Assembly: GCF_003864255.1 (NCBI RefSeq) | Contig: NZ_QWEZ01000002.1 | Location: 434,001 to 498,000 of the forward strand | Reading direction: 5' to 3' | From: Aestuariirhabdus litorea | Lineage (GTDB): Bacteria > Pseudomonadota > Gammaproteobacteria > Pseudomonadales > Aestuariirhabdaceae | Length of the DNA stretch: 64,000 nt | Part shown: one piece after another, positions 1-21,726 of the stretch | Numbering within the stretch: position 1 is the stretch's first letter | Layout of the letters: every line of letters starts with the position of its first letter | Translations under genes and position numbers: made by a program | The notes under the pieces: model-generated | What the model saw: the letters and a program-made list of their open reading frames with translations, nothing else | Database searches by the model: none | What the model was told of the DNA's origin: nothing

Positions 1-433
1 CACCTGGAGGCATGAGCTTTTCTGCCTCATAGTCGACCGGTATTAACGGGCACTGATGTTCCAGACATAACGGCAGCCAACCGATACTCCACTTCGCCAG
101 CATATAGCCCTTCTCTTTGAAGCAAGCCGGGCAATACATTTCATGCTTATGCAAGTGATGGCTCGGAATCAGCATTGCACCATAGTGGTGTTCCCAAGAG
201 CCCCGTGCACTTGACAGCAATCTCAGCTTTTGAAGGTGCCCCCTTCGGTATCCAATGACTTCAGCGATATCATCGTCACAAAGCTCATGCGCACTGATAT
301 TTCTGCTCTTCCACCAGATCTCTTTAAACAACCCAACGGAAGGGTACCCATTCACTTCGGCAAGCCGCCTTACATAACAGTTGATACTTTGTCCCTCATA
401 GGGGAAAGGGTAAATGTTAATGCTCATGCCCAT
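1..433 (-). CDS. tniQ: TniQ/TnsD-family transposition target-selection protein (partial, C-terminus outside window)
   Basis: This is the N-terminal ~144 residues of a TniQ-family protein, read on the minus strand and running off the left edge. It starts MGMSINIYPFPYEGQS. About residues 110-140 carry a zinc-finger pattern, YCPAC followed by CLEHQCPL, typical of TniQ/TnsD. In Tn7-like elements TniQ/TnsD recognises the target DNA or couples to another targeting complex and recruits TnsC. The ATG overlaps the tnsC stop by one base (TAATG), so the two are translationally coupled; a second in-frame ATG lies two codons downstream. Whether this is a long TnsD-like or a short TniQ protein cannot be seen. 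No crRNA or cas gene is visible. Confidence 0.85.
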   Translation of the reverse strand, partial: MGMSINIYPFPYEGQSINCYVRRLAEVNGYPSVGLFKEIWWKSRNISAHELCDDDIAEVIGYRRGHLQKLRLLSSARGSWEHHYGAMLIPSHHLHKHEMYCPACFKEKGYMLAKWSIGWLPLCLEHQCPLIPVDYEAEKLMPPG

Positions 434-1371
434 TAGCCCTCCTCGTAAAACGGCTCACCAAAGCGAGTGAGCGGTTCATGGTTAAAGGACGAACTGAATG
501 GGTTTCTATCAAGGGATACCTCAGCCCATATCTTTAGCTTAAACGCTTCTTCAAAGTGTGAGACTTTAAGCCCTTTACCTCTGTCCTCAGCAGATAACCG
601 TACGGCTTCAGCAGTAATAGTGACCATATGGGCGATGAGCCCGTTTGTGGCATAGTGCAACTGCTCCAAAAACTTTGTATCCTCAATGATCCTGCAGTCC
701 TTCCTATACCCAGACGATTCGATCAGCGTATACAAAACAGCCTGAAACTCTTCCATACTCGCCTTACTCTCCAGGTTCCACCCACTAATACTGTGAGTTT
801 CGGAAAATCGTCGTTTTAGTTGAGAGTTCGAATCCAGCAACCTGGTGAGGATAGGTAGGCCGACCATAACGATTGAAACTTTCGTCTCATTCATTAGCCA
901 TTTAAGCCAGTCAGCAAGCTCCCTATGCTGCTTTTGTGTTCCTCGCTCAACCATTTCCTGACTTTCATCAATAATCAGAATACGTGTTTTACAGTTTATA
1001 ATTTGGATTAACAGTATCTTGCTAATATCACGCGTGGTGGCATTTCTAGGGTAGTGCGCTCCCATTGCATCAAGTATCACCATACCCGTTGAAATAATCC
1101 CGGGCCTTGGCGGAATAGAAAAAATTACTACTGGTCTTTCGACATAGGTACCTTTGTCTATGGGTTGAAAGTTTTCACCAACAGCTTCTATCATGGTTGT
1201 TTTACCGCCCCCCGAAGGCGCCTTTATCGTCATACCAAACGAATTGCTCGTCTGAGTACAAACGGTTTCATGCAATCTACAAACAGCATCATAGGCGGCT
1301 TTATAAGAACTAAAATTAAGACGTGCTCTGTGAATGACCTGAGCCATTTCATTTGATTGATTAGTTGTCAT
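433..1371 (-). CDS. tnsC: Tn7-like AAA+ ATPase transposition regulator TnsC
   Basis: 312-residue AAA+ ATPase. The Walker A (APSGGGKTT, residues ~51-59) and Walker B (ILIIDESQE, ~131-139) motifs are intact. In Tn7-like systems TnsC links the target-bound TniQ/TnsD to the TnsA-TnsB transposase and controls target immunity. It is shorter than Tn7 TnsC (about 555 residues) and closer in size to the compact TnsC of CRISPR-associated and other short Tn7-like elements. The start is the ATG preceded by GGAGGCGGT and overlaps the tnsB stop by 4 nt. The order tnsA-tnsB-tnsC-tniQ with overlapping ends indicates a single operon. Confidence 0.93.
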   Translation of the reverse strand: MTTNQSNEMAQVIHRARLNFSSYKAAYDAVCRLHETVCTQTSNSFGMTIKAPSGGGKTTMIEAVGENFQPIDKGTYVERPVVIFSIPPRPGIISTGMVILDAMGAHYPRNATTRDISKILLIQIINCKTRILIIDESQEMVERGTQKQHRELADWLKWLMNETKVSIVMVGLPILTRLLDSNSQLKRRFSETHSISGWNLESKASMEEFQAVLYTLIESSGYRKDCRIIEDTKFLEQLHYATNGLIAHMVTITAEAVRLSAEDRGKGLKVSHFEEAFKLKIWAEVSLDRNPFSSSFNHEPLTRFGEPFYEEG

Positions 1372-3350
1372 ACCGCCTCCACTTTTTTAATATCTGATAA
1401 CTTCTTACTCTCTATCACAGGTTTTATTTTTCCCCGATTCCGTTTTGAAATTCCAATAGGCTGCGTTCCGGTTAATTTTTCACTATCACCGGCTGCCGCT
1501 TTTTTCTTCCTGGTACCGCTCGTCTTCCTCTTTGAGCTCTTCGCCTTACGCTCCATATCCTGTAGATCCTTTTGTGCTCTTAACAGGATCTGCTCCGACA
1601 ACTTCTCTTCTTGCCTTCTTTTACTCAATGCAGACTTTCTTACTTCCTGATGGCTTTTTAGATTTTTTACTTTTTCGATGTATGTTGTATAAGTGCATGG
1701 CACATCGATTGTGTTTGTTGTACCCGGAACAACAACCCGAACAAGTCTGAGGTCTTCCTCATCAACAAATACGTCAACCTGAAAAGCTAACCCTTTTTCG
1801 CGCATGATCCCCATCAGCTCTTTTGAGTTATATTTCAAGCCTTCAATCGAAATGCCATCTTTTTGAATTGTTCTTTGTTTTATTATCCACAACAGCTCAT
1901 CTATCTCCGTTATGCTATTCGGCAATCTTATTATTTTCTGTGACAACTTATTTCCCTGCCAGCAAGTCAAAGGTGACTCACCAAGTGCCTTATGAACTCG
2001 AGTGTGGTATACATCTACAACCCACTTATGAATCATTACGTTCACCTGGGATAGGGTATAAATCGCTTCTTTTTTGCTTTTGTAATCGCCACACTTGCTG
2101 TAGTTGCTAAATGTGGTTCCCCGCTTACTGTGAAATAACCCTTCATTAAGACTTCTGAAAAACCTTTCCACTCTACCTTTGAGTTGCGGGCTGCCTTTTG
2201 GCAGATAAACGATCTCGCCCAGATGACCCATTACCCTCTGAACCTCTGATGCGTGTAAGTCCCGTCCGTTATCTGTAATAACCTGGTCAGGCATGCCCAT
2301 ACACGGCCATTCAGACTCAATGTTCACCCCTTTTAAATGTTTGACGTAGTCCTTACTTAAAACCATATTCCGATACGCTTTGACTACTGATCTTGCTGAT
2401 GGAGTACTCATGGACAGAAAGAGCCCAACTACCATTCTCGACTTCTTATCAAGGAACACTGTAAGCCACGGCCTTCCTAAGACCTCTTTTGTGTCCTCAT
2501 CTATCACGTTGATATCAAGCTGTGTATGATCCAATTCCACAGCCTCCATGAGATATGTTGCCTCAACCACTGGTACACCACTTGGAAAAGCTCGTTTTGC
2601 AGCTAACCAGCCCTCATGTTTAACCTTCTTGTCAAAGGCTGAGTGCGTGGATAGCCACCTGTACATTGTTGATAACGAAGGCACGCTACACCCCCTGTAT
2701 CTTTCTTTGTCGGCTTTTTCTAGCGTCATAAGAACTGGGATGTGTGTTACTGGGACTTTATTTTGCTTCCAGTAGTGTTTTTCAGTGACCAGGTTGAATA
2801 GCTCCCGCGTCAGCTCATCCTGGTGATTTTTTTCTATGTTTTCAGGATTGGTTTTTGACCGGGTACGTGGACGGCGATCCAAGCTCAATACATTGTCTTT
2901 TGATGCCCTAATCCGGGCATGCCAGCGTCTGACTGAGCTTAGCGAAGGCACACCTTTTGACTCACTGAACGGATCTTCTTTTTTTGCATGCTCAGCTATT
3001 TTTTCCAACTGATTATCTATACCTTTGATCACCGATCCATCGGGATTTGAAATTGCATTTACATACCCTTTTTTCCGCAGAATATCTTTCTTGCGTTCAT
3101 CGCTTAGCAGCAACATTTTACTTTCTGATAGGTCATACCCATTTTTTTCCATCACATCCAGCGCTTGCCTTTCAAATACAAGCTCGCCTTTCGCGAAGTA
3201 ATGTGATAGCTCATCATAACTTAACGATACCTCTATCCCGCTTTCTGGCTGGCACACAGTAACTCGATTGGCACTCAGCAGATTTTTATCAATCACATAC
3301 TTTTCCCCTTTCAGCGCTATCGGGGTATCACGCACTAATGAATTGAACAT
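1368..3350 (-). CDS. tnsB: Tn7-like DDE transposase TnsB
   Basis: About 660-residue transposase that cuts the 3' ends of the transposon and joins them to target DNA. The retroviral-integrase-type core shows all three acidic residues: D in VELDHTQLD (~274), D in VITDNGRD (~360) and E in LKGRVERFF (~395). N-terminal DNA-binding HTH regions precede the core, and a basic Mu-transposase-like C-terminal domain follows, ending in a Lys/Arg-rich tail that would contact TnsC. I chose the ATG at 3350, nine bases after GGAGG; a GTG nine bases upstream overlaps that Shine-Dalgarno sequence. It overlaps tnsA by about 23 nt and tnsC by 4 nt. The reading frame looks intact. Confidence 0.95.
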   Translation of the reverse strand: MFNSLVRDTPIALKGEKYVIDKNLLSANRVTVCQPESGIEVSLSYDELSHYFAKGELVFERQALDVMEKNGYDLSESKMLLLSDERKKDILRKKGYVNAISNPDGSVIKGIDNQLEKIAEHAKKEDPFSESKGVPSLSSVRRWHARIRASKDNVLSLDRRPRTRSKTNPENIEKNHQDELTRELFNLVTEKHYWKQNKVPVTHIPVLMTLEKADKERYRGCSVPSLSTMYRWLSTHSAFDKKVKHEGWLAAKRAFPSGVPVVEATYLMEAVELDHTQLDINVIDEDTKEVLGRPWLTVFLDKKSRMVVGLFLSMSTPSARSVVKAYRNMVLSKDYVKHLKGVNIESEWPCMGMPDQVITDNGRDLHASEVQRVMGHLGEIVYLPKGSPQLKGRVERFFRSLNEGLFHSKRGTTFSNYSKCGDYKSKKEAIYTLSQVNVMIHKWVVDVYHTRVHKALGESPLTCWQGNKLSQKIIRLPNSITEIDELLWIIKQRTIQKDGISIEGLKYNSKELMGIMREKGLAFQVDVFVDEEDLRLVRVVVPGTTNTIDVPCTYTTYIEKVKNLKSHQEVRKSALSKRRQEEKLSEQILLRAQKDLQDMERKAKSSKRKTSGTRKKKAAAGDSEKLTGTQPIGISKRNRGKIKPVIESKKLSDIKKVEAV

Positions 3351-3984
3351 CTCGGTCACCCTCCATGTATGTTAATTCTGTTGTTTCCTTGATTTCTCTA
3401 TTCCAATCAAAGCCAAGCAGTTGTGCCGCCATCATTTCCATCACAACCTCCCAGCCAAGCTTCTTCGACAGCTCGCCGAAGGTTGTTTTTTGCTTGGGTA
3501 GCAACGCACACAGCTCCTCAAGCGTTCGTCGTCTCGTTGTATGCACTAATTTCAAGCGACAGGTATTAGCCACGCCTACATTACTCAGCGGCAACTCCTC
3601 CTCCGTCAGCACGAAAAACTGATACCCTTGCTTATTCAGGTACTCACCTATGGCCTTGTGCTTCACCTTGATTTCTTCTTTCTCAGCCTCCCGCTTAGGC
3701 TTTATTTCCAGATAAACCACCGCTCCGGAGCTCAAAACAATCTGGAAGTCCGGGTAATAGGTAATGGTCTTATTCCACATAGGAACCCTGAACTTTCCTG
3801 CCTCCTCAAGGATTTCTACTACATCGCTGCACCGCCACAGGTATAACCCCCAGTGGTACTGAAGCCTGGATTCAAGGGCTGATACCCTCGGATCATTGTT
3901 TAGTTTCGTCAGCACTCGAGTTGTCAGCCTGCTTACAGACATAACCTTGCGCCCGCTGTGCTGTTCGTGTGTTTGTATTGCCAC
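3328..3984 (-). CDS. tnsA: Tn7-like endonuclease TnsA
   Basis: 218-residue heteromeric-transposase endonuclease that cuts the 5' ends of the element and so allows cut-and-paste transposition. The catalytic pattern is present: E in ALESRLQ (~38), D in YYPDFQI (~79) and E-x-K in YLEIKPK (~93-95). A C-terminal TnsA-like helical region follows. The GTG start is preceded by GAGGA. It is the first gene of the tns operon and, by the known Tn7 layout, lies nearest the transposon end, which should therefore be just to the right. Having TnsA separates this element from Tn5053/Mu-like replicative relatives. Confidence 0.93.
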   Translation of the reverse strand: MAIQTHEQHSGRKVMSVSRLTTRVLTKLNNDPRVSALESRLQYHWGLYLWRCSDVVEILEEAGKFRVPMWNKTITYYPDFQIVLSSGAVVYLEIKPKREAEKEEIKVKHKAIGEYLNKQGYQFFVLTEEELPLSNVGVANTCRLKLVHTTRRRTLEELCALLPKQKTTFGELSKKLGWEVVMEMMAAQLLGFDWNREIKETTELTYMEGDRDVQFISA

Positions 3985-4336
3985 CAGTTCTTCCTCAATT
4001 GATCAGCTTCAATGACCTAAATTCGAGACAAAGGGGCCCTATGTGCGTGCCGACATTTTTTTCAGCACTCACTGTTCGATTCAAACTTGACCGGAGAAGA
4101 GGGGGGCAGGATACTTTGACTGTCGATCGAGGTAGTCCTGCTACTTCTTCATCTGGGTCAGCTGTGTTTCAGAAAAGGCCCGTTTGTCTTATGTCTTCAT
4201 GATCATCTCACTCTGTTTGAATTTTGATCAGCATCTACAACATCTAGATCCTGCGTTTAAAAAAATCAACTTCTTATAAATCATTGACTTACGATTAATT
4301 TATCGCTTATTAACCACCTCCTTCTCTCTTTCTACC

Positions 4337-4373
4337 TACCCTCTATAACCATCGACCTACTCCAAACCGGACA
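4337..4373 (+). repeat. Bipartite direct repeat, copy 1
   Basis: TACCCTCTATAAC (4337-4349), 14 unrelated bases, then AAACCGGACA (4364-4373). The same two blocks with identical spacing recur at 4508-4544. TATAAC could be a -10 element; ACA at the outer edge could also be a Tn7-like terminus. Function unproven. Confidence 0.75.
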
Positions 4374-4507
4374 AGTGTCTGAATTTTTTCTTCTTTTTTT
4401 TCCTTTCCTGATTTCATTGCCTCCCCTTAATTTTTTATATAATAATTAGCGCTTATCTGATTAATTTATAACCAAAAGCGATATACTCCGAAATACTCTA
4501 ACCCTCT

Positions 4508-4544
4508 TACCCTCTATAACTACCGGGTGAGGTTAAACCGGACA
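4508..4544 (+). repeat. Bipartite direct repeat, copy 2
   Basis: TACCCTCTATAAC (4508-4520), 14 unrelated bases, then AAACCGGACA (4535-4544). Same phase as copy 1, 171 bp downstream. It lies about 115 bp before the start codon of the sigma-like gene, so operator or promoter use is plausible. Confidence 0.75.
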
Positions 4545-6698: not shown

Positions 6699-9600
6699 TC
6701 ACCTCCTGGCTTCACCCAGCTGTTCCCTCAACCAACGCAGCATCATAGTCTGTACTTCTTTTGCCACCTCCGTACTGCCTAGGTATTTCATAGACATCTC
6801 TTGCTGCGTATCCATCCGCTCGATCACTGCCTCATCCATAGCGCGAGGGAAATCCCCGTTCATCACGGCAGCATCGGTGTTGTTATGAACCTGATCCATC
6901 ACGGCCTTGTTCTCACTCATCTTTGTGGCCATGCCATTCCACCAATCAAGTCCATCCCCTTGAGTAATATCTATCCCCATTAACTCATTGATCTTGGACA
7001 GTATCTGCGACAGCAGATCTTTCTCCTGCTCCCGGGCCGTGGCGGTACCCACTCCAGTGATGCCGCTGAGGTACTCGCCATGCTCCTCCCGTAGCTTGAG
7101 ATCCTGGGTGCGCTTGTACTTGAGGTTGTAGTGGCTCAGCACCACCGAGGAGAGGTCGATCTCATCCTCCTCAATCACCTCCTGATGCAGCAGGGGCAAC
7201 AGGTGGCGGCAGAACACGTTCATCTGCTCCAGCGTGCTGTCGTCGAAGGGGACGATCTGGGAGATAAACTCATAGAAGCGAATAAAGCTCTGCACATCCT
7301 TCTTGAACAGGTCGAGGGAGTTACGGTTCTCTTCAGCCTCTTTCACACAGCGCTCGGCGTTGACCTTTTCTGTCTCACTACCGACCCGGGCCGCCTCCTT
7401 CATTTGCGCCCGCGCTTCCCGCAGGGTTTCGTTGGCATGGCGGTAGCGGTGAACAAAGCGATCCACCGAGGGTTTGATATAGCCGGTCAGCGCATGGGCG
7501 CCGCGCTTTGGGTCAAAGTAGGCATCGGCAAGGGCCACCACTTCGTGCCAGTTGATGATGCTGTTATCCCGCAGCTTGTGGAACAGGTCATAGACCAGGT
7601 TGGGGTCGGATACCTGATCCAGCTCGGCCACTTCATAATAGGGCTGAAACTCCCCCAGTATATCCTCGGGCTCGTTGACGAAATCCAGCACGTAGGTGCT
7701 CTCCTTGCCGGGATAGGTACGGTTGAGTCGTGACAAGGTCTGGATGCAGTCGACACCGGTCAGCTTCTTGTCGACGTACATGGCGCACAGCTTGGGCTGG
7801 TCGAAACCGGTCTGGAACTTATTGGCCACCAGCATCAACTGGTAGTCGTCGGTATCGAACGCCTTGCGCATATCCCGCCCCTTGAGGCCGGGGTTCATGT
7901 TCTTTTCGGTAAAGGGCTCGGGCCCACTCTCCTTGTCGATCACTTCTCCCGAAAACGCCACCATGGCGGCCAGTTTTTCGTAGCCCTTCTCCCGAATGTA
8001 CTTATCGAACGCCAGCTTGTAGCGCACCGCCTCCTTACGGCTGGAGGTCACCACCATCGCCTTGGCTTCTCCAGCCAGCAATGGGCTGATGTTGCTGCGG
8101 AAGTGTTCAACGATCACCTGCACCTTCTGGCCGATGTTGTGGGGATGCAGCCGTATCCAGGTGTTGAGACGGGTTTTGGCTTTTTTGGAGTCAACCTCCT
8201 GGTCAGCGGCCTCGGTGGTCATCGCCAACCGGTAGGCCATCGAATAGCTGGTGTAGTTCTTTAGCACATCGAGGATAAAGCCCTCCTCGATCGCCTGACG
8301 CATGGAGTACACATGGAACGCTCGGGGCGGGTTGTCGTTGCTGGCCACCACCGTTGGGTCGTCAGGACGCCCGAACAGCTCCAGGGTCTTGGCCTTTGGG
8401 GTGGCGGTGAAAGCAAAGTAGCTGATCCGGTCGGAACCGCCCCGGGCCGCCAGGGTGGCGTTCATCACATCCTCGGCGGAGAGTTCCCGTTCGTCGTTCT
8501 GCTCTTCGGCCATCAACACCTGACGCAGCTTGCGAGCGGTACTGCCGGTCTGGCTGGAGTGGGCCTCATCGGCAATCACGGCGAAGGTTCTCTCCTTCAG
8601 GCCTGAGCTCTCCTGGATCGCTGTCAGCACATTGGGAAAGGTCTGGATCGTGACGATAATGATCGGCGTCCCGCTGGCCAGCGCCTCCGTCAGCTGGGCC
8701 GATTTACTGCCGTCACCCTCTTCACGGTTGATACGGCTCACCACGCCACTGGCATGCTCAAACTGGGAGATGGTCTCCTGCAGCTGGTTGTCCAGTACGG
8801 TGCGGTCGGTAATCACAATGACCGAGTTGAACAGCTTCTCACCTGCCGCATCGCACAGGCTGGAAGCCTGGTGCGCCAGCCAGGCGATGGAGTTGGACTT
8901 GCCCGACCCCGCCGAATGCTGGATCAGGTACTTCTTCCCGGTGCCCTCCATCTTGGCCGCGTCCAACAGCTTTTGCACCACGGCCCACTGGTGGTAGCGG
9001 GGGAAGATCATGGTTTCTTTGGTTTTGATCCGCCCCAGCTCGTCGAAGCTCTCCTTCTGCTCCAGGTGTACATAGCGGTGCAGGATCTTGAGCAGGTTGT
9101 CGCGCTGGAACAGCTCACGCCAGAGGTACTCGGTGGCATAGCCATCCTCGGGCTGGTCATTGCCTGCCCCCCCCGCCTTGGTGCCCCGGTTGAACGGCAG
9201 GAAAAAGGTGTCCTTACCCGCCAGTTTGGTGGTCATGGCCACTTCAAACTGGTTCACTGCAAAATGCACGATAGCCCCGCGCTTGAACTTCAGCAGCGGC
9301 TCGTCCTTGCCATTCGTCCTGGGCTTGCGATCGTAGCGGTACTGTTTCTTGGCGTTCTCCAGGCTCTGCTTGAAGCAGGACTTCAATTCCAGCGTTGCCA
9401 CCGGCAGCCCGTTGAGAAACAGGGCCAGATCGATCCGTCCCAGATTACCCTCATGGGGGCTGTAGATCAGTTCCGGCACCACCCGCAGGCGGTTGGCGCG
9501 GTAACGCTCCGATAACTCCGGGTTCAGCTCATGGTCGGGCTTGAAGGTGGCGACCTTGAGACGCACCCCACGGTCTTCGATCTGGTTACGCAACAGCCAA

Positions 9601-9851
9601 AGCGTGCCCTTGCGATCGAGACCCCGTACCGCCGCATTGAGCAGATGCTTCTCCGGTTCACTGCCGTAGATCTTGCAGAACTTCTGCCAGTTATCGGGCT
9701 GAGTGGCCTGTACATAAGCGATCAGGTCTTCCGGGTAGAGCGCCCGCTCGCGGTCATAGCCGTGGGTATTGCCCACCAACCAGCCCTGCGCCTCCAGCTC
9801 GGCAATGATGTGGTTCTGGAAGGTCAACTCCAGGGCTTTGGCATCACTCAT
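6699..9851 (-). CDS. hsdR: Type I restriction enzyme R subunit
   Basis: 1050-residue restriction and translocation subunit. The N-terminal nuclease domain shows D141 and E155-x-K157 (LGRIDLALF and TLELKS). The SF2 motor has Walker A SAGSGKS (~313-319) and DEAH (~428-431). A C-terminal helical HsdR domain binds the methylase core. HsdR cuts unmodified DNA far from the recognition site after ATP-driven translocation. It is the last gene of the hsd operon, separated from hsdS by four extra genes. An 11-nt gap to the gene upstream implies co-transcription. The frame looks intact and of normal length. Confidence 0.95.
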   Translation of the reverse strand: MSDAKALELTFQNHIIAELEAQGWLVGNTHGYDRERALYPEDLIAYVQATQPDNWQKFCKIYGSEPEKHLLNAAVRGLDRKGTLWLLRNQIEDRGVRLKVATFKPDHELNPELSERYRANRLRVVPELIYSPHEGNLGRIDLALFLNGLPVATLELKSCFKQSLENAKKQYRYDRKPRTNGKDEPLLKFKRGAIVHFAVNQFEVAMTTKLAGKDTFFLPFNRGTKAGGAGNDQPEDGYATEYLWRELFQRDNLLKILHRYVHLEQKESFDELGRIKTKETMIFPRYHQWAVVQKLLDAAKMEGTGKKYLIQHSAGSGKSNSIAWLAHQASSLCDAAGEKLFNSVIVITDRTVLDNQLQETISQFEHASGVVSRINREEGDGSKSAQLTEALASGTPIIIVTIQTFPNVLTAIQESSGLKERTFAVIADEAHSSQTGSTARKLRQVLMAEEQNDERELSAEDVMNATLAARGGSDRISYFAFTATPKAKTLELFGRPDDPTVVASNDNPPRAFHVYSMRQAIEEGFILDVLKNYTSYSMAYRLAMTTEAADQEVDSKKAKTRLNTWIRLHPHNIGQKVQVIVEHFRSNISPLLAGEAKAMVVTSSRKEAVRYKLAFDKYIREKGYEKLAAMVAFSGEVIDKESGPEPFTEKNMNPGLKGRDMRKAFDTDDYQLMLVANKFQTGFDQPKLCAMYVDKKLTGVDCIQTLSRLNRTYPGKESTYVLDFVNEPEDILGEFQPYYEVAELDQVSDPNLVYDLFHKLRDNSIINWHEVVALADAYFDPKRGAHALTGYIKPSVDRFVHRYRHANETLREARAQMKEAARVGSETEKVNAERCVKEAEENRNSLDLFKKDVQSFIRFYEFISQIVPFDDSTLEQMNVFCRHLLPLLHQEVIEEDEIDLSSVVLSHYNLKYKRTQDLKLREEHGEYLSGITGVGTATAREQEKDLLSQILSKINELMGIDITQGDGLDWWNGMATKMSENKAVMDQVHNNTDAAVMNGDFPRAMDEAVIERMDTQQEMSMKYLGSTEVAKEVQTMMLRWLREQLGEARR

Positions 9852-9862
9852 AGGACAACCCT

Positions 9863-10498
9863 TTACTTAAACTCGACAATTTGACGCTCTTTAAGCAGTG
9901 CTTTGTACTCCTCGACCACCGCTTCCACGGCATCCGACGAACCCAAACGTGAAATGGGCACATCATGTCGAAAAACAAAGCCTCCCTGATTGAGCATGCA
10001 CTGTCCACCGCTCTTATCGGGCCAGCTATTTTTTCCGTAGAGGTTCCACCATCCATCGCTCTCCTCGTAGCTTGTAGCCGCTTTATAGGCGTACAGCTGT
10101 AATCGAGTTTCGGTGGCATCCGTTTCGTCTGGAATATCCATGACATCCCAGTTTATTTTTTTGTCGGTAAACGCCTGGGAAAGACCACTGTCAGTGACCA
10201 GCCGAACAACCAGCATCCACCCTTCGGGAACGACTGAATCTTTATCGTTCACCTGCGCGCTAAGAAAAAAGAAATTGGAGTCGACCAACGGCGAATAATC
10301 CCATGTCCAACGCGTAAACGCGTTGGACTTGCCACCTGTGGGTGTAGAGTGGAAAACAGGCCGCCAGTAGTAGTAAGCGCACTCAAGCTGGTTTGCGATA
10401 CTCTCGATAATTGGCAACACCCGCTGGTGATACGCCACCAATAAACGCTGCGCTTTGCGAACATCACCCATGGCCGCATTTAATGCTTCAGACTCCAT
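9863..10498 (-). CDS. Unrecognised protein embedded in type I R-M operon
   Basis: 211-residue soluble protein with many aromatic residues (for example YYYWRPVFHSTPTGG and WWNLYGKNSWPD) and no signal peptide or membrane segment. I do not recognise its family. It lies 12 nt after the 316-residue PD-(D/E)xK protein gene and 11 nt before hsdR, so it is almost certainly part of the same transcript. Its tight placement next to the nuclease-like gene suggests that the two act together, for example as nuclease and partner; this is inference. Confidence 0.75.
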   Translation of the reverse strand: MESEALNAAMGDVRKAQRLLVAYHQRVLPIIESIANQLECAYYYWRPVFHSTPTGGKSNAFTRWTWDYSPLVDSNFFFLSAQVNDKDSVVPEGWMLVVRLVTDSGLSQAFTDKKINWDVMDIPDETDATETRLQLYAYKAATSYEESDGWWNLYGKNSWPDKSGGQCMLNQGGFVFRHDVPISRLGSSDAVEAVVEEYKALLKERQIVEFK

Positions 10499-10510
10499 AA
10501 TCTCTCCTTG

Positions 10511-11461
10511 TCATAACCCGTTACTGCGACTCTTCATCTTTTTAATGGCGGTAAAACTGGCATCCGCTATTGGCGAGTAGTGCTGGAGAGCGTCCCAGCC
10601 TGGGAAGTGCTCGCCTGACCGCCTTTTTTGCTCAATACCCTTTCGCCACTCTCCCCATATCGGACGTTGCAACCCTTCAAAATCATCCAAACCGGGTAGA
10701 GCTTTGAAGTCCGCACGGCTTCCCACAACGGGCTTCTTCTTATCACCCATCGAAAGCCCCCAGCCTGCCAGGCACTTGGCCTCTGCAACCCCGCGCAAAC
10801 GGCTATCACAAAGGTCAGCAATCTTAAACTCGCGGTATTGAACGGCATAGAGCTCCAGTGCGGAGAGGATGTCACCCAGTACCACTGAGTCTGCCTTCGT
10901 CATCGGGCCGTCGCTTCTGAGAAGCCGGTCGATACCCTTCGCGATACTGATCCAGTCCGACGCAAATAAAGGGACTGATCGAGAAATCTTCTCATCCTCT
11001 TCCAGCCGTACCGCTAAACCGGCTATCAACTCTTGGTTATGGCTGGGGTCACCCCCTACCGCCCAGAAAATCAAGTCTCCGAGCCAGTAGTCCTCGGGCA
11101 ACGCCTCCAACTCTCGGTACCACTGTTCAGCGTGCTGCAAGCCATCTCTTGGGCGCTTCACCTCGACCACCACCTTCAGGCCCTCAAAGTGAAGAATCAG
11201 GTCTGGCTCCACCTGGTTCTGGATGGTCGAGCTGAAACGTGGCCAGAATTCAACACCGGATAGGGTGCTCAAAGCAGTGGAAATATCAGGCAAAAAGGTT
11301 TCGAGCAGTAACTGCAAGGTGGGTTCGGAGAGATAGGGTAAGCGCGAAAACACCGCCGCCGTGATCATATCCTCACGCTCTTTGTAAACCTGACGCAGAG
11401 GGATCGACTCCTCCTTAACCAGGATGCGACCAGCTTTATTATTGATAATGGCGTGCAGCAT
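10511..11461 (-). CDS. PD-(D/E)xK nuclease-like protein in R-M operon
   Basis: 316-residue protein with a probable restriction-endonuclease-fold core: D87 (VEPDLILHF), then E100-x-K102 (VVVEVKRP). This is the canonical D...ExK layout, with a strand of the expected length between. The C-terminal ~180 residues are mostly helical and unassigned. It starts at an ATG four bases after the stop of the DUF5655-type gene and is followed at 12 nt by the unrecognised 211-residue gene. Nuclease chemistry is inferred from the motif; the target is unknown. It could act as an extra anti-phage effector carried inside the operon. Confidence 0.75.
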   Translation of the reverse strand: MLHAIINNKAGRILVKEESIPLRQVYKEREDMITAAVFSRLPYLSEPTLQLLLETFLPDISTALSTLSGVEFWPRFSSTIQNQVEPDLILHFEGLKVVVEVKRPRDGLQHAEQWYRELEALPEDYWLGDLIFWAVGGDPSHNQELIAGLAVRLEEDEKISRSVPLFASDWISIAKGIDRLLRSDGPMTKADSVVLGDILSALELYAVQYREFKIADLCDSRLRGVAEAKCLAGWGLSMGDKKKPVVGSRADFKALPGLDDFEGLQRPIWGEWRKGIEQKRRSGEHFPGWDALQHYSPIADASFTAIKKMKSRSNGL

Positions 11462-11465
11462 GACG

Positions 11466-12395
11466 CTATCCCTGTTGGTAACTGCGCTCGATCAGCGGCT
11501 TGGCTTTTTCCAAATCTTCCGCAGTGCGGATCGTCAGCTCAAGATCGCCGGTACCCCAGTGGCCGATCTCACGCATGTCGCGGGAAAAGCCTTCCTCCAG
11601 ATCTACATCGGTTGGAGAAAGTGCCAGCATCAGGATGATCTTCGGGTTGCTCTTAGCGTTGAGGGTGATGCAGGCGAAGTTGCGGATACGTTTGAACGCT
11701 GTGTAGAGCTTCAGCTCCTTACGCTGCACTTCATCACCCAGGCTATCGGCATAGTCACACAACTCGTCGTAGAGCGCTTTAAGCGGTGCAGGAGCGACCT
11801 CAAGGGCGGCCTTGTGAGTCCAATCCCACTTCGCACCAGGCACCGGCTCCGCGTTATGACTGGCTGCTACCACCGCCTCGTGCCCGCTGGCCGTCTGTGC
11901 ATTAACCAGATCTAGCAGCAGCAGATCCTCTCCAAAGTAGCGGTAGCGCACCAGTTCGATGTTGCGGTTGATCTGCTGTACCGCGTGCTCGTCGTATTTG
12001 TTGAAGTCGCTGGCGATGCAGATCAGCCGGGTGCCGCTCCACTCGATCGCCTCGGCGGTCTCCTTACCGAACGTCTCCATCACCAGCCAGCGGAACTCGG
12101 CCTGATGATCCAGCAGCCAGTCGAGGTAGAACAGCCCCTGGTTAATCACGTTCTCGTTGCTGTGGCGCTTGTACTCGATGATCACCGGGCAGCCGTTCTC
12201 ATCCAGCCCCAGACTGTCGATGCGCCCCTTATGGGTCTTGCCGGTGCTGTATTCGGTGGCGAGGAAGCGCACACCGAGGAACACCTCCATCTGCCCCTCG
12301 ATCAGCGCTTGCAGCTCTTTCTCAAGTTTGGCGGTGCGGCTCGGCAGCGCCTCTGCCTGCTCGCCGTTAAAGCGATAGAGTTTGGCGTCGCTCAT
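11466..12395 (-). CDS. DUF5655-type protein with NucS/RecB-like nuclease motif
   Basis: 309-residue protein. The N-terminal half has a nuclease-like core: D60 (GRIDSLGLD) and E74-x-K76 (VIIEYKRH). The C-terminal ~110 residues (ALYDELCDYADSLGDEV onward) match the pattern of DUF5655. Proteins of this architecture are common beside type I R-M genes, but their role is not established as far as I know. A 96-bp gap separates it from the FRG gene upstream and may hold a weak promoter. It is followed at 4 nt by the next nuclease-like gene. Confidence 0.8.
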   Translation of the reverse strand: MSDAKLYRFNGEQAEALPSRTAKLEKELQALIEGQMEVFLGVRFLATEYSTGKTHKGRIDSLGLDENGCPVIIEYKRHSNENVINQGLFYLDWLLDHQAEFRWLVMETFGKETAEAIEWSGTRLICIASDFNKYDEHAVQQINRNIELVRYRYFGEDLLLLDLVNAQTASGHEAVVAASHNAEPVPGAKWDWTHKAALEVAPAPLKALYDELCDYADSLGDEVQRKELKLYTAFKRIRNFACITLNAKSNPKIILMLALSPTDVDLEEGFSRDMREIGHWGTGDLELTIRTAEDLEKAKPLIERSYQQG

Positions 12396-12491
12396 GTAGC
12401 TGCCTCCCTAACGGGAAGAGGCCACCGAGGTCGATTACTCCGAACAATGTCAGCTAATGATTTTAATCTTGGGGAATTCTGATCCATTTTT

Positions 12492-13229
12492 TCACCCTTC
12501 GAGAATCTCGTTTCTCACTTGCTTGGCGACCTCATCCAACTCCGGCGGATATATCGTATCCCTATGATAACCGTGCGCTCTCAATTCGCTCACCATCGCT
12601 GGAATCGCCCGACTATCCACTCGAACACTGTAAAGCCGGTTTTTCAGGTACTTGTTCTTTTCCAAAGGAACGAAACCTTTCGAGCTCTTTTCAACGTGCT
12701 TGAACACGGAGAAACGACCTTTCTGCGCTCTGATCCTAGGGATCGTGAACTCAGTCTCGAACAACTTCGTTCTAGTTCCTACGAAGGGGCGGGCCTTGTT
12801 GTTCTGCTCGATATAGTCCTCAGCGTCCGGACACATCATCCATATCACTGGATCAGAGTCATTGTGCTGTTCAGCTGTCTCCAGTGCGAACCACAGGGCG
12901 ACCTTTGGGTTCTTCGTCCAGTCGAGAAGCCTAGTAGGAAGGCCATGGTGCTGTGCCACCACCAGCCAGTCCCAGTCGTTAGTGGGAATCAAGTGTAGAG
13001 AATCTTTTGCCTTCTCTTTAAAGCTCGAAAAGAGCTTGTCTTCTCTCTCCAGCACTCGTGAATTGTTAGACAATCGAGATAACCCAGGGAGCAGCGGCCA
13101 AGGCTTCCGTTGCCCTCTGAACAGAACGTGATCAGTCTTCCGTCGGGTGGCTTTAGCCCACGCTAGAAGCTCCTTGATACTACTAACCGTCTCTTTCCCT
13201 GAACTATGCACTAGGCCGCTCCCACTCAC
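12492..13229 (-). CDS. FRG-domain protein in R-M operon
   Basis: 245-residue protein with the FRG signature: LFRGQ (residues ~36-40) and the central block QHHGLPTRLLDW (~93-104), followed by ALWFALE. FRG domains are found in many bacterial defence-associated proteins; their biochemical activity is poorly defined. The GTG start lies inside the 3' end of hsdS (26-nt overlap), so it is translationally coupled to the specificity subunit; a second GTG lies six codons downstream. Position within the hsd operon suggests an R-M-linked accessory or abortive function (inference). Confidence 0.85.
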   Translation of the reverse strand: MSGSGLVHSSGKETVSSIKELLAWAKATRRKTDHVLFRGQRKPWPLLPGLSRLSNNSRVLEREDKLFSSFKEKAKDSLHLIPTNDWDWLVVAQHHGLPTRLLDWTKNPKVALWFALETAEQHNDSDPVIWMMCPDAEDYIEQNNKARPFVGTRTKLFETEFTIPRIRAQKGRFSVFKHVEKSSKGFVPLEKNKYLKNRLYSVRVDSRAIPAMVSELRAHGYHRDTIYPPELDEVAKQVRNEILEG

Positions 13230-14529
13230 GTAAGTCGATCTTGCCGGTAACGGCGGCGGAGACCAGGGCGGTGCGTCGTTCTTTCATTAGCTCGATAGCT
13301 CTCACCGCGTGATCAATCAGCCTTCCGAACTGCCGGTCTTGTTCCGTACAGTACTTGATGATCGCCTCCTGCTCCTTCTCTGGTGGAACGCACACTTTCA
13401 TCTGCCTGACAGAGTTGAGTGAAAGGTTGTAAATCGTGGTTCCAGTAACCTCTGTGTCAAAGTAGTGACTCACCTCATCACTGCGGAGGTAAGCCATTAG
13501 GAAACGACGGTTGAGTGGCTGTTTGCAGTTTATGTAACAAGCGCTCTTACCGAGGATGACCGGCTCTCCATTGTAGAGAGCTAGATTGCCAACTGTCCCA
13601 TTGATCGACATGAGGGCAGATGAGTTGTCCAGCGGGATATGATGCTTGTGGTACTCGCTTTCTGGAACTTCCTTGCTTGTTGGGCCGAGCTTGATCGCCC
13701 CATTGGAAAGGTTATTGCCATTGACGAAGTAATAGCCGGTGCCGTCCTCATACACAGGTGTAGAATGCAACCCGTCTCCTATCCGCGAGGTTACGTACAG
13801 TAGCTTGGGCAGACCCCAATGCTCCGGCACCTCCCCCAGCCACTCGACGCCGGAGTCCTTCATCGGCGCGTCGGGGTTGAGGCCCTTGGTGACGGCGTGG
13901 GAGATCACCGCCTGCCGCTTCTCCTTGAGCAGTTCGATCAGCCGCTGCTGCCTGGCGATCAGGGCGTCGATGCGGGCGGTTTCGTAGTCGAGGAAGGCGG
14001 CTATGGTGCGTTGTTCTGTAAGCGAAGGTAGAAGTATCGAAACACCACTGAAGGTCTCAGGGTAAAGGCGTAACCGGGAGTCTATAACTCCTGTCGATAA
14101 CGTCTTGAAGTGACCAGTGTACAGACTCGTCCTTAACAGGTAGTGCATGTAGTTCGGCCATGCCTTCCGGGGATCAAACCGGAAGACTGAGTAAGCCGGA
14201 CTAACAATACCGTCGTAGCCGGATACTCCGAGACCTGTCTTCCACGCAAGCATGATGTTCATTACTAAGTCATCTGTTTCGCACTTCTTGTATCCCACGA
14301 GCGACTCAGCCCGAGATAGATGCTCCCCTTCGCCGATGGCCTCTTGGCGCGGCTTAACCCCGTAGTACTCAGAGACCGAGAGAAGTTGCTCTTCGCCAAG
14401 CTCTGACCGTTCGTTCACCTCTCGGAAAACATACTTTCCGCGCAACGTTTTCCAACCGTCTGGGATAGGGCCCAGCCAAGGTTTGCCAGAATCAGTGTAA
14501 TCTGGATATGGTTGATACCCCCCTGTCAC
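13204..14529 (-). CDS. hsdS: Type I R-M specificity subunit
   Basis: 441-residue HsdS with two target-recognition domains separated and followed by conserved helical spacers. The first spacer reads [20 protein letters not shown] and is followed by [20 protein letters not shown]. The second half repeats the plan with [15 protein letters not shown] and [20 protein letters not shown]. HsdS reads the bipartite DNA site for both methylation and cleavage. It overlaps the hsdM stop by 4 nt (ATGA). The recognition sequence cannot be deduced by eye. The frame is full length. Confidence 0.95.
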
Positions 14530-16517
14530 GAGTGCACCTCCGCCAGCAGCTCCATGATCTCCCGGCTCACCGCGTCCAGATCGGCATCGATCTCCTCCAG
14601 TGAACGTGGCGGCTGGTACTGGTAGAAGTGGCGGTTGAAGGGGATCTCGTATCCGACGATGCCTACCTGCCCGTCCTTGTCATCACGCTTGTTCTCGTCG
14701 ATCCAGGCGTCCGGCACATGGGGCAGCACTTCGCGGGCGAAGTAATCGTGGATGTTCTCCCCCAGCGGGACGTTCTCGTTGTCGCGCAGATCGGGGTTGG
14801 CTTCAAGTTGGCCTTTGGTTTTGCAGATCTCTGCCTCGTCATCCTGCTCGCCCATATGCTTGCAGATCAACTTGAACGCCGGGGCGGGTAGCTTGATGCT
14901 CCCCAGCAGCGCGCCGAGCTGCTTTTTGAAGGTGGCTCGTGACAGCAGCTTGCTGTCGGCAAAGCGGCTTAGGGCGTGGAGGATTGCAGACTGTAGGGTT
15001 TGATCCAGTCTGTCCCATGTTTTGTCGGCCTGCATCGCCGCGATCCGCTCTTGGTCGTGGGGGTAGAACGCCGGTTTCAGGGGTCGCTCCACGGTGATGC
15101 GGCGGTAACCGAAGTCGGTGGTGTTGAACAGCTTGGCGATACCGCCGGCTTCCAGCTCCGCCATATCGTAACGGCTGTAAAGGCCGACGATCTTGTCCAG
15201 TGCCTCGTCGTTGAGGAACTTGCGCTTGGAGCCAAGGGACTTGCGCATCGGGCTGTGCATATCGCTGGCGTTGATCAGCAGCACCTTGCCCTTACGCTCC
15301 GTTGGCTTGTGGTTGGAGAGCACCCAGATATAGGTGGCGATGCCGGTGTTGTAGAACATATCGGTCGGCAGCGCGACTATGGCATCCAGCAGATCCTGCT
15401 CCAAAATGTAACGGCGGATCTCGCTCTCGCCACTGCCCGCACCGCCGGTAAACAGCGGCGAGCCGTTCAGGATAATGCCGATGCGTGAGCCCGGAACTTC
15501 AGGGGTACTGCCACGCATTTTTGAGATCAGGTGCATCAGGAACAGCAGGGAGCCGTCCGACACCCGTGGCAGGCCGGGCCCGAAGCGCCCCTCGAAGCCC
15601 TGGTGCTGGTGTTCGTCCTTGACGGTCTTCTCCACCTTCTTCCAGTCCACACCGAAGGGCGGGTTGGAGAGGCAGTAGTCAAAACGCTCGCCGCGCAACT
15701 GATCCTGGGACAGGGTGTTGCCCAGCTTGATGTTGGAGATCTCCTGCCCCTTGATCAGCATGTCTGCCTTACAGATGGCGTAGGACTCGGGGTTGAGCTC
15801 CTGGCCGAAGGTGGCAAGGCGCGCATGTTCGTTCAGTTCGTGCAGGTACTCCATGCCGCAGGAGAGGAAGCCGCCCGTGCCCGCCGTCGGATCGTAAATA
15901 GAGCGCACCACGCCGGGCTTGGTGAGTGCATCGTCGTCGGTGGCGAATACCAGGGAGGTGGTCAGGCGCACGATATCACGCGGGGTAAAGTGTTCCCCGG
16001 CGGTCTCGTTGGAGCTTTCCGCGAAACGGCGGATCAGGTCTTCGAACACCAGCCCCATGTGGTAGTTGTCCACCGCTTCCGGTGACAGGTCAAAGTGGGC
16101 GAACTTCTGCACCACCTTGTAGAGCAGGTCGGCATCTTCCAGCTTGGCCAGGCTGCCCTCGAAGCTGAACTGCTCGAAGATCTCCCGCGCATCGTTGGAG
16201 AAGGCTCTCACGTAGCTGTCGAGGTTATCCAGGGTATGGGTTTCACCCAGGCGGGCGAGATCCAGCCGCGAGCTGTTGTAAAACGCCTGTCCCGCCGCGT
16301 TCAGCAGCAGTTTATGGCGCGCCTCCTCCGGCATCGAACGGGTGGTCTCCACCATGGCCAGCACCTTCTCCTTATTCGGTGCCAGCACACACTCGAGACG
16401 ACGCAACACGGTGAAGGGCAGTATGATGCGACCATACTGGGACTGCTTGAAATCACCGCGCAACAGATCGGCCACTGACCAGATCAGACCAGCCAGAGAA
16501 GAGGTTTGGGTATTCAT
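14526..16517 (-). CDS. hsdM: Type I R-M N6-adenine methyltransferase subunit
   Basis: 663-residue HsdM. The SAM-binding motif [10 protein letters not shown] (~209-217) and catalytic NPPF (~285-288) are intact. The N-terminal helical HsdM_N domain is present, and a C-terminal extension of about 150 residues (after KLPAPAFK) makes it longer than the ~500-residue classical EcoKI-type subunit. It is the first gene of the hsd operon. The promoter must lie in the 0.73-kb gap to its right, which carries the 21-bp repeat array. Confidence 0.95.
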
Positions 16518-16679
16518 CGAAGCAACAGGCTCCCTAGCCCCTGGGGGGCATTGGTTTCAATGACAGAGTGCCATGAACAGCAATCAAATAGGTTTAAGCC
16601 ATCCTATAGGATAAGCGTCTGCAGTTGAATTGGTGTAAATCAAGAGGATAACCGTGAGCTGTGGGGGGGCTTACCCCAT

Positions 16680-16779
16680 ACTTCATTGGGCTAAAACCAT
16701 ACTTCACTGAACTAAACCGATACTTCACTGAACTAAATCCATACTTCACTGAACTAAATCCATACTTCACTGAACTTAG
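16680..16779. repeat. Tandem array of five 21-bp repeats, each with a TTCACTGAA palindrome
   Basis: Units start at 16680, 16701, 16722, 16743 and 16764. The common core is ACTTCACTGAACTAAA followed by a variable CCAT or CCGAT end. The first unit is the most diverged (TTCATTGGG). TTCACTGAA is a 9-bp palindrome around a central base. 21 bp is two helical turns, so bound proteins would stack on one face. A GTG-initiated frame through it would read PYFTELN heptads, but no convincing ribosome site supports translation. Confidence 0.85.
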
Positions 16780-16854
16780 CCAAAAGCGGATCCTAATAAA
16801 ATCAACGACTTACAAAACCAGCCATTGTCACCCATCCCACCTGAGCGGGATTAT

Positions 16855-17244: not shown

Positions 17245-17943
17245 ATGACCTTGAAAAACATCAAACCTGATAAACAAATGGCACTGATGCTAGCCAAGAA
17301 TCAGCTCGCTGAGCTGGTACATGACGCTGTAGCCCTTGAGGGAATCCTCTTCACCCTGCCTGAAATCCAAATGCTCATGAACGGCCACACCGTGGGCGGC
17401 CACCCCTTAAGCGACCAACAGATAGCGATCAACCAGGCGAACGCGTGGGGCTATCTTTTTGATGCGATTGAAAATGGATGGTTTGACCTGTCTGCTCGGT
17501 TCGCTAAGGATCTGCATTCGATCGCAGGCAAAGAGGAGGCGCTTACCTGGGGTGACTATCGGCACGGTGGAGTGACCATTTCAGGTACCGAGTATCTGCC
17601 GCCAGAGCCCGAGGAGCTGCCAGCGCTCTTTGAGCTAATGGTCGCCGGTGCCCTGCAGATCTCCGATCCGTATGACCGCGCCATTTTTGTTTTTCTCGAG
17701 ATGGCTAGAAGCCAGTTTTTCTATGATGTAAACAAACGCATGGGGCGGTTTATGATGAACGGCGTGCTGCTTGCAAATGGCTACCCTGTGATTAACGTCC
17801 CGGCCAAGCGACGAGAGGAGTTTGACGCGCTGATGCTTACCTTTTATGGCTCCGGTTATAAAGCGCCCATGGGCGCCTTTTTGCGCTCTTGCATCGACCC
17901 TCGCGCTGTGGGGGTCATGTCAGGGTGTCCGAATGGATCCTGA
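17245..17943 (+). CDS. Fic-family protein with non-canonical active-site motif
   Basis: 232-residue Fic-domain protein. Fic enzymes usually transfer AMP or related groups through HPFxxGNGRxxR. Here the region at ~152-168 reads SQFFYDVNKRMGRFMMNG: the catalytic His is replaced by Gln, and GNGR by VNKR, although the Phe, Asp/Asn and Arg framework is kept. An N-terminal segment VHDAVALEGI resembles the inhibitory helix but lacks its Ser/Thr. The ATG follows GGAGGTGAAAA. The XRE gene 69 bp downstream suggests a toxin-antitoxin-like unit. AMP transfer is doubtful given the Gln; another activity or an inactive variant is possible. Confidence 0.75.
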   Translation: MTLKNIKPDKQMALMLAKNQLAELVHDAVALEGILFTLPEIQMLMNGHTVGGHPLSDQQIAINQANAWGYLFDAIENGWFDLSARFAKDLHSIAGKEEALTWGDYRHGGVTISGTEYLPPEPEELPALFELMVAGALQISDPYDRAIFVFLEMARSQFFYDVNKRMGRFMMNGVLLANGYPVINVPAKRREEFDALMLTFYGSGYKAPMGAFLRSCIDPRAVGVMSGCPNGS

Positions 17944-18012: not shown

Positions 18013-18315
18013 ATGCACGGTTCACTTCTTGAGCAGATCAAAAAACGCCGAAAATCCCGTGGGTTACGGCAGGAGGATCTGGCCTTGTCGATCGGGATGA
18101 GTCGCCAGCAGTTTCAGAGGACTGAAGCGGGGGGCAACCCGCGCCTGGACACTCTCGAGCTCATCGCAGCCGGTTTGCAGTGTGAACTCCTGCTCGTCCC
18201 GAGGCCGTTGGTGGATGCAGTAGGTCAGCTGGAAAGGGGTGAGCTGATCTACGAGACGGTGGAGGATCCCTGGGGGGAGTTTTTGGCTGACTGTGAAGAC
18301 GATGACGATGGCTGA
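18013..18315 (+). CDS. XRE-family helix-turn-helix regulator
   Basis: 100-residue protein. Residues ~5-60 form an XRE/HipB-like HTH (LLEQIKKRRKSRGLRQEDLA and IGMSRQQFQRTEAG). The C-terminal 40 residues are acidic and end in EDDDDG. The ATG is five bases after AGGGAGGGA. It follows the Fic-like gene on the same strand, an arrangement seen for antitoxin or autorepressor genes. The two 30-bp repeats covering its ribosome site are likely targets. An independent regulator of the Fic gene is the main alternative. Confidence 0.8.
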   Translation: MHGSLLEQIKKRRKSRGLRQEDLALSIGMSRQQFQRTEAGGNPRLDTLELIAAGLQCELLLVPRPLVDAVGQLERGELIYETVEDPWGEFLADCEDDDDG

Positions 18316-18450
18316 TCGCTGCACTTTCCCTTGGATTTTTGGCGGGTACTTTTTAAAAGGCCTGCAGCCCGGTGGTGGGGTTCGTGGAGCTCCCTCTTTT
18401 AGTGTCAAAAAAAGGGGGGGAAAGGGGGAGGCTCTGCTGGTGGGCCAAAC

Positions 18451-18579
18451 CAAAAAGGGTAGGATTGTTTTACCAACCCGACCTTTTTTGGTTAAATATT
18501 AGCCAACAAAAACTTTCAAAATAATATAACTACCTGATTTTATTGACTATTACTTTTCCATTTATCGTGAGAACCTACA
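18451..18579. repeat. Diverged duplicate of the gyrB 3' flank (copy A)
   Basis: About 130 bp resembling 19152-19301: a decayed hairpin (AAAAAGGGTAGGATTG against CAACCCGACCTTTTTT, two internal mismatches), then a shared AT-rich stretch, then TTTCCATTTATCGTGAGAA (18555-18573) and CCTACA. Same orientation as the gyrB-proximal copy, 0.7 kb away. Confidence 0.8.
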
Positions 18580-18673
18580 GTAGGGGATAAACGCCAGATG
18601 GCTGAAGCTATTAATAAAATAAAGGATCGAGCGATAACAGAGTATCCTGTGTCCACCCAATTATTTTTACCAA

Positions 18674-18874: not shown

Positions 18875-19151
18875 TTTATTCCCCTCAACTCAAAACCCTA
18901 CAAACCCTGTATGTTTCTCACTATAAACCACAGCAGGATGTATGCCCACCCATCGAATGCCAAATCAGCCCTATCGCTTACCTTTTAAGTACATTTGGTT
19001 TTAACCATAAAGACCATGCTCCATAACAATCCATCGACTTTTCCTACTGGATCTACTCCCCAGCTTGAACCAGGCCATTCAAGGGCAGTTCGTGAGCTGC
19101 AGGGGAGGGCATCTATTCTTTTTTACCTGCATGGCTTCTTTTACTCAGTCA

Positions 19152-19301
19152 CAAAAAAGGGTCGGATTGTTTTACCAATCCGACCCTTTTTGGTCAAAAA
19201 CCAACCACCAAAAACTTAGAAATACATCTAACTATCTGATTTTATTAGTTATTGTATTTCCATTTATCGTGAGAATTTTCCATTTATCGTGAGAACCTAC
19301 A
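19152..19301. repeat. gyrB 3' flank, copy B with tandem 19-mers
   Basis: Gyrase-proximal copy of the duplicated block. It holds the intact gyrB terminator and two copies of TTTCCATTTATCGTGAGAA (19257-19275 and 19277-19295) 20 bp apart; copy A has only one. Confidence 0.8.
19153..19191 (-). terminator. Rho-independent terminator of gyrB
   Basis: On the minus strand AAAAAGGGTCGGATTG, loop GTAAAA, CAATCCGACCCTTTTTT: a 16-bp perfect stem with a T-run, about 120 bp after the gyrB stop. It is symmetric enough to work in both directions. Confidence 0.9.
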
Positions 19302-19311
19302 ACCTCAGGTG

Positions 19312-21726
<2,415 letters not shown>

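Follow-up and report, generated by a model that had tools for sequence, protein, structure and literature searches.

A Tn7-like transposon next to gyrB in Aestuariirhabdus litorea and its candidate TniQ selector

The locus next to gyrB

In this study, we examined a Tn7-like transposon of Aestuariirhabdus litorea, the core of which lies at one edge of a 64,000-nucleotide stretch of DNA (the window; C2:434001-498000 of a 3.66 Mb assembly). The sequence was also read leftward beyond window base 1, and bases to the left of it carry negative coordinates. An operon of tnsA, tnsB, tnsC and a small tniQ (tniQ1) stands beside a large tniQ (tniQ2), and the entire interval is bounded by gyrB on one side and, on the other, by a gene whose end lies 7,125 bp beyond the left edge of the window and which we take to be plsC from its sequence and neighbours. 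The features that matter most are the following (lengths in amino acids, aa; E, expect value).

19312..21726, minus strand: gyrB, the proposed target gene (Pfam DNA_gyraseB, GyrB_insert and DNA_gyraseB_C), with the insertion just downstream of its stop codon
19273..19301, minus strand: right (tnsA-side) element end, TGTAGG plus the 19-bp repeat TTCTCACGATAAATGGAAA; second repeat copy at 19257-19275
18552..18579, minus strand: second right-end copy inside the element, TGTAGGTTCTCACGATAAATGGAAAA preceded by CCTAC
3328..3984, minus strand: tnsA, TnsA-like endonuclease, 218 aa (Pfam TnsA_N PF08722, E 1.5e-07)
1368..3359, minus strand: tnsB, DDE-type transposase, 663 aa (Pfam Mu-transpos_C, E 6.1e-08; PDB PseTnsAB, E 2.4e-40)
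433..1371, minus strand: tnsC, AAA+ regulator, 312 aa (Pfam TniB, E 4.8e-26; VchTnsC, E 2.1e-12)
433 to -295 (L005:5705-6433), minus strand: tniQ1, small TniQ, 242 aa (Pfam TniQ, E 1.9e-11)
-2064..-235 (L005:3936-5765), left of the window on the same contig: tniQ2, large TniQ, 609 aa (Pfam TniQ, E 1.5e-10; HTH_17, E 2.1e-12)
-6968 (C2:427032): probable left element end, TGTAAATAACCAAGATAAGTGGAAA, 18/25 identical to the right end and its best counterpart in the 500 bp behind plsC

The tnsA-tnsB-tnsC-tniQ operon, which an earlier note on the window had described, is borne out by its genes, their Pfam matches and the motifs that we take to be the catalytic ones: LDHT (residue 276), TDNGRD (362) and KGRVER (394) in TnsB, YYPDF (76) and LEIK (92) in TnsA, SGGGKTT (53) and ILIIDES (131) in TnsC. 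All five core genes are open, and tnsA, tnsB, tnsC and TniQ/TnsD genes occur together as in Tn7-like elements. Among solved structures, the best sequence matches are VchTnsC for TnsC and PseTnsAB for TnsB. The window edge cuts tniQ1 after the first 144 of its 242 residues. The leftward reading that the note had advised completed this gene, revealed tniQ2 and reached the probable left end; the CRISPR array that was also sought there did not appear.

The element spans about 26.3 kb, from approximately -6968 to 19301 (C2:427032-453301), so that the interval 1-4544 first assigned to it was too short. Its tnsA-side end begins 10 bp past the gyrB stop codon and carries two perfectly identical 19-bp repeats; in the region from -8000 to 19700, exact copies of this repeat occur at 18555, 19257 and 19277 only. 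The boundary that the earlier note had placed at 4.0-4.6 kb was rejected because that region holds no exact end repeat, and the probable target is within the window: the gyrB 3′ end is at 19312, some 15 kb to the right of tnsA. The left end is likely to be at -6968: its score was reached by three of 2000 Markov controls, and its internal sites are weaker than those of the right end. The element thus shows the TGT...ACA ends with repeated subterminal sites that are expected of Tn7-like transposons, with two 19-bp repeats on the right and the 18/25 counterpart on the left. The note had also located the cargo and targeting genes left of the window; this holds for the large TniQ, but the restriction-modification (R-M) genes and other cargo at 4.6-19 kb are inside the element too. 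Its view that glmS is not the target stands: glmS is at 43484-45316, and in the 700 bp that follow it no sequence is conspicuous as resembling an end of this element or of Tn7.

About 150 bp of the right end are present twice, at 18430-18580 and 19150-19301, 722 bp apart with a short open reading frame (ORF) between them. This duplication is a trace of repeated insertion at the gyrB site, and the copy at 18552..18579 is probably the remnant of another insertion there. Separately, at 16660-16780, TGTGGGGGGG is followed by about five 21-bp repeats of the CATACTTCACTGAACTAAATC type facing gyrB; this resembles either an end belonging to another Tn7-like element or an iteron array. It adjoins a Fic protein (17245-17943) and an Xre-like frame near 18014 that was spotted by eye.

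Relatives at gyrB and parE

Relatives were collected by three routes. Within the order, 293 genomes were searched with TnsB and 39 matched, the context being read in 12; TniQ2 searches matched seven of 369 genomes and ten of 150, five being examined in each case; and a scan of genome contigs with a TniQ2 alignment gave 12 loci, all of which were looked at. The TnsB and TniQ2 searches placed relatives behind a gyrB that shares their contig and orientation in nine other genomes: G133 (= L096), G398 (found among the 369), G803 and G873 (both among the 150), a Thauera metagenome-assembled genome (L098), Azospirillum brasilense (L101), Thauera sp. 2A1 (L102), Caballeronia fortuita (L106) and Pelomonas sp. 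(L107). The insertion therefore stands beside one set conserved gene, gyrB, on the same contig in ten genomes including that of the window, and it is on this position in ten linked genomes that the proposal of gyrB homing rests. Where the ends can be placed, they lie 2-15 bp past the gyrB stop. Six of the 12 loci of the TniQ2 scan have gyrB on the same contig in the same orientation; L100 is not at gyrB and L099 was not placed. In five more genomes (G097, L097, L103, L104 and L105), an end-like sequence abuts gyrB and the tns genes are on a separate contig. In G097, the contig with a Tn7-like end behind gyrB is complemented by a far end on the tns contig that matches it at 19/25.

The closest relative, G133, has gyrB, R-M genes, tnsA-B-C, a TniQ1 of 240 aa and a TniQ2 of 585 aa in the same order as the window. 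G398 has two ends that agree at 23/25 positions, and its 5-bp duplication, GATGT, is perfect and overlaps the stop codon of gyrB. The right terminus TGTAGGTTCTCA of the window is also found behind gyrB in G398 and in four Thauera genomes, whose termini read TGTAGGTTCTCAC, as in the window. Far ends were not found for G133, both Thauera elements, L101 and L106. Two genomes of the same genus, G001 and G002, show no such end behind their gyrB and gave no match to TnsB. In the window, the flanks share AGGT, but not a full 5-bp duplication. In the family of G133, one of 140 genomes matched, namely G133 itself. Against 4838 plasmid records, the best places for TnsB were all below 60% identity (24-30% among the 20 matches listed), and a scan of genome contigs with the single TnsB returned no relative.

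The 12 contexts read in the TnsB search also brought out a second attachment site. The element shares its contig with gyrB in G000, which is the genome of the window, and in G133, and G097 is split; eight elements (G029, G066, G172, G030, G048, G117, G193 and G160) are at parE, and for G232, which has an I-F Cas6 about 12 kb from tnsB, no target gene was assigned. The parE insertions lie 0-9 bp past the stop codon in the seven that were measured, with perfect 5-bp duplications in G030 and G117. On the TnsB tree the parE clade has a support of 100/100 and includes G160, which was labelled ‘other’ in the tree and later placed at parE. The window TnsB falls outside this clade and its flank is gyrB, so that the element does not belong with the parE-homing ones.

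TniQ2 as the proposed reader of the gyrB end

TniQ and HTH_17 domains were matched in all nine TniQ2 proteins of alignment A3. We trained a profile of the C-terminal part of TniQ2 on four gyrB selectors (L096, L098, L106 and L107) and ran it against 830 ORFs. The held-out gyrB-associated selectors L097, G000, G398, L105, G803 and G097 scored from E 2.8e-33 to 1.7e-15, the window TniQ2 (G000) among them at E 1.8e-32. L102, L103 and L104, which are Thauera relatives of a training row, were matched as well. None of the TniQs of the eight parE elements was matched at E <= 1. As judged from these sequences, the TniQ2 C-terminal profile is enriched at gyrB and is not exclusive to it. If a gyrB-homing group is defined by this profile together with a gyrB flank, the window has both.

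The TniQ2 of G133 (585 aa), which is the closest relative of the window TniQ2 and 36% identical to it, was modelled. In its residues 301-585, most blocks have a predicted local distance difference test (pLDDT) score of 67-92, one block stands at 46 and a few are in the 60s, and the modelled secondary structure looks like a winged helix-turn-helix repeated about five times. A Foldseek search with this model gave nothing at E <= 0.001; single modules matched Xis, RacA, BldC and MerR-type domains with a probability up to 1.00 and E 0.13 or worse. With VIA-align, the highest Z score was 7.9 and the alignments fell mainly on a single module (residues 358-422); this level is middling on the scale of the tool, and unrelated cullin rows on residues 225-294 scored nearly as high.

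The role of TniQ1 may be a different one. Both TniQs are present in the gyrB elements of G000, G133, G398, Thauera and L107; in L106, G097 and G873, a single large TniQ directly follows tnsC with no small one beside it in the stretch read. Because these elements with one large TniQ are also associated with gyrB, TniQ1 is probably dispensable for homing there, and it most likely serves a second route with another partner. Such a second, indirect route via another selector has been proposed for a small TniQ beside a large one in PMC10293859. An all-versus-all comparison of eight elements gave no extra gene common to all dual-TniQ ones, the L107 stretch ending in tnsB and several far ends missing from this comparison. 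The structure model of TniQ1 was unusable (mean pLDDT 47.9).

Altogether, we consider it very likely that the locus is a Tn7-like transposon of about 26.3 kb that uses the gyrB 3′ end as its chromosomal attachment site, with TniQ2 as the proposed homing selector. What the sequence shows is where the right end lies, which genes the element holds and that relatives recur at gyrB; for binding, recruitment, activity and the part played by TniQ1 we infer the following. TniQ2 would bind the conserved coding DNA at the gyrB end through its C-terminal row of winged-helix modules and contact TnsC through its TniQ domain; TnsC would recruit TnsA and TnsB, which would hold the TGT...ACA ends by their repeated sites and excise the element. 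Insertion would take place a few bases behind the gyrB stop (2-15 where measured), with the tnsA side towards gyrB, and would make a short target duplication and leave gyrB intact.

Several observations weigh against this explanation. The C-terminal profile also matches elements that are not placed at gyrB (L099, L100, G449, G316 and G623); in L100, gyrB is about 58 kb off with no end behind it, and G449, G316 and G623 show no end behind their gyrB. Conversely, the gyrB element G873 is matched weakly (E 1.7e-5) and branches far away on the tree, where it was then labelled ‘other’. The TnsB and TnsC trees neither show nor reject one gyrB clade (approximately unbiased test, p 0.504 for the five gyrB elements then known). 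The TniQ2 model has a mean pLDDT of 64.6 and was made from a relative of 36% identity. Regarding the ends, the left end is identical to the right one at 18/25; no clear end repeats were recognised behind gyrB in G803, L101 and L107; the G133 end begins with TGC; and the G097 duplication is off by one (TAAGT versus AAGTA). In the window itself there is no perfect 5-bp duplication (GAGGT on the gyrB side, AGGTA on the plsC side, AGGT in common), and the second right-end copy shows the locus to be composite.

Cargo, alternative explanations and known systems

Cargo flanks the tns operon on both sides. The approximately 15 kb between tnsA and gyrB hold a type I R-M cluster and other genes, and to the left of TniQ2 come a DpdF/RecQ-like helicase, a coiled-coil protein, a 179-aa ORF and then plsC.

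6699..16517, minus strand: type I R-M cluster, cargo (PADLOC and Pfam matches)
14526-16517, minus strand: hsdM (Pfam)
13204-14529, minus strand: hsdS (PADLOC and Pfam)
6699-9851, minus strand: hsdR (PADLOC)
-5436..-2188 (L002:14564-17812), left of the window: helicase, cargo, 1082 aa (Pfam DEAD and Helicase_C; PADLOC DpdF, E 4.1e-125)

Between hsdS and hsdR, at 9863-13229, an FRG-domain protein, a DUF5655 protein and the two-gene candidate defence module PDC-M15A/B of PADLOC are accessory genes within the R-M cluster. Four of the eight elements compared (window, G133, G398 and L107) have diverged type I R-M genes in the stretch from the gyrB-side end to tnsA. At L002:14107-17812, the helicase protein, RecQ/DpdF/PsyrT-like and with a DUF559 match just under the cut-off, adjoins the coiled-coil protein, and the two are a possible defence pair. 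Xre-type regulators stand upstream of tnsA in Thauera (L098:4230-4700) and G097 (L031:3680-4087) and are reminiscent of the regulators RtaC/RtbC of CRISPR-associated transposons (CASTs) that are named in PMC11406308. On the far side of the target gene, gyrB is followed by recF, dnaN and dnaA; Pfam confirms gyrB and dnaA, and we name recF and dnaN by their position.

It could be argued that the element stops at 4.0-4.6 kb and that 4.6-19 kb is a separate R-M island lying by chance between it and gyrB. In canonical Tn7, tnsA abuts the right end; the locus has several end-like sequences, and two related stretches at 4338 and 4509 share 13 identical bp. These stretches are unlike the ends that we found, however, and the end repeat has no exact copy in their vicinity. 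Moreover, G133, G398 and L107 also carry cargo with type I R-M genes between gyrB and tnsA, and in G398 both ends and the 5-bp duplication place that cargo inside the element, which makes a chance island quite improbable in our view. A dead composite of at least two gyrB insertions, with unpaired ends and a tns operon lacking a functional end pair, deserves more attention, given the second right-end copy at 18579, the different end-like array at about 16660 and the imperfect duplication; it would be compatible with gyrB homing of the family. Yet all five core genes are open with the motifs looked for present, and the site preference seen in the relatives would stay unchanged. We regard it as unlikely.

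Guide direction, or a need for TniQ1 in homing, for instance through CRISPR components encoded outside this locus, is an explanation to which we give very little credence. The core does resemble I-F CAST proteins: the compact TnsC, which the earlier note had likened to those of guide-directed or other short Tn7-like families, is indeed I-F-like. In addition, according to the review PMC11406308, there is an I-F3 branch with two TniQs, one of them homing on parE and the other acting together with CRISPR-Cas. A search of 16 genomes detected Cas6f (I-F Cas6) in four: in G097, G117 and G172 its contig is not that of tns, and in G232 it is near tnsB. It had no match in the genome of the window, G133 or G398. 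No CRISPR-like repeat or array was found within the element, and no Cas family among 17 element proteins in a Pfam scan, which is the only scan that covers CAST types beyond I-F. CRISPR guidance is thus unsupported, as is membership of the CASTs, with neither a Cas effector match nor an array in the element; and gyrB elements with one large TniQ speak against a need for TniQ1.

The preferred explanation, a transposon homing on gyrB through TniQ2, would have several consequences. As gyrB is essential and highly conserved, there would be a landing site in nearly every bacterium, adjoining in the window the recF-dnaN-dnaA cluster, and a protein-only, site-specific integration system with a new target. 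With its small TniQ1, the element gives a concrete starting point to look for target selectors of a new kind. More tentatively, and with somewhat less than even confidence, we propose that a non-CRISPR group of proteobacterial Tn7-like elements evolved its own reader of the gyrB 3′ coding end, in the form of some five winged-helix modules of Xis/MerR-like type in a row on TniQ2, that it did so independently of the selectors for glmS and parE, and that the optional TniQ1 is a hub for a second target selector, a socket from which CASTs could arise.

With respect to the literature, homing on parE has already been published, and no report of gyrB homing was found in the literature searched. The word stem gyr is absent from the main texts of PMC10293859, PMC8649781 and PMC11406308, and gyrB from PMC6360697. 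In the available parts of the publications on Tn7-like, TniQ, TnsB or TnsD elements, islands and insertion sites, including PMC12452197, gyrB was not reported as an attachment site, and a mention elsewhere or in supplements is possible.

Among known systems, canonical Tn7 (TnsABCDE) shares with the window TnsA, TnsB, TnsC and a large TniQ-domain selector. It inserts just behind the essential gene glmS (attTn7), with the tnsA side towards the gene, much as seen here. In contrast to Tn7, the window element is at gyrB and not at glmS, has cargo on both sides of the tns genes and carries a second, small TniQ; the Pfam scan of the 17 element proteins gave no TnsE match, no search aimed at TnsE having been made. 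The type I-F3 CASTs Tn6677 and PseCAST provide the best solved matches of the core, VchTnsC and PseTnsAB. Unlike them, the window element contains no CRISPR-like array and its genome gave no match to I-F Cas6, and its proposed selector would be the DNA-binding TniQ2. In PMC11406308, insertion beside parE is attributed to a TniQ in some I-F3 CASTs.

Tn7017 (EasCAST) and other parE-homing Tn7-like elements resemble the window in that their tnsA-side end is beside the gene of a type II topoisomerase B subunit, and some have two TniQs. They differ in their target, parE instead of gyrB, and in that the window's genome has no I-F Cas6. Furthermore, none of the TniQs from the eight parE elements showed the C-terminal profile of the window TniQ2, whose HTH_17 domain is also absent from the two large parE TniQs scanned. 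The C-terminal segments of GyrB (RRDFIE) and ParE (R(R/K)xWLE) are alike, and because both proteins end in this way, the use of both paralogues may not be due to chance. The paralogues gyrB and parE, used by related transposons with selectors that differ in their C-terminal part, would offer a test case for selector acquisition by Tn7-like elements.

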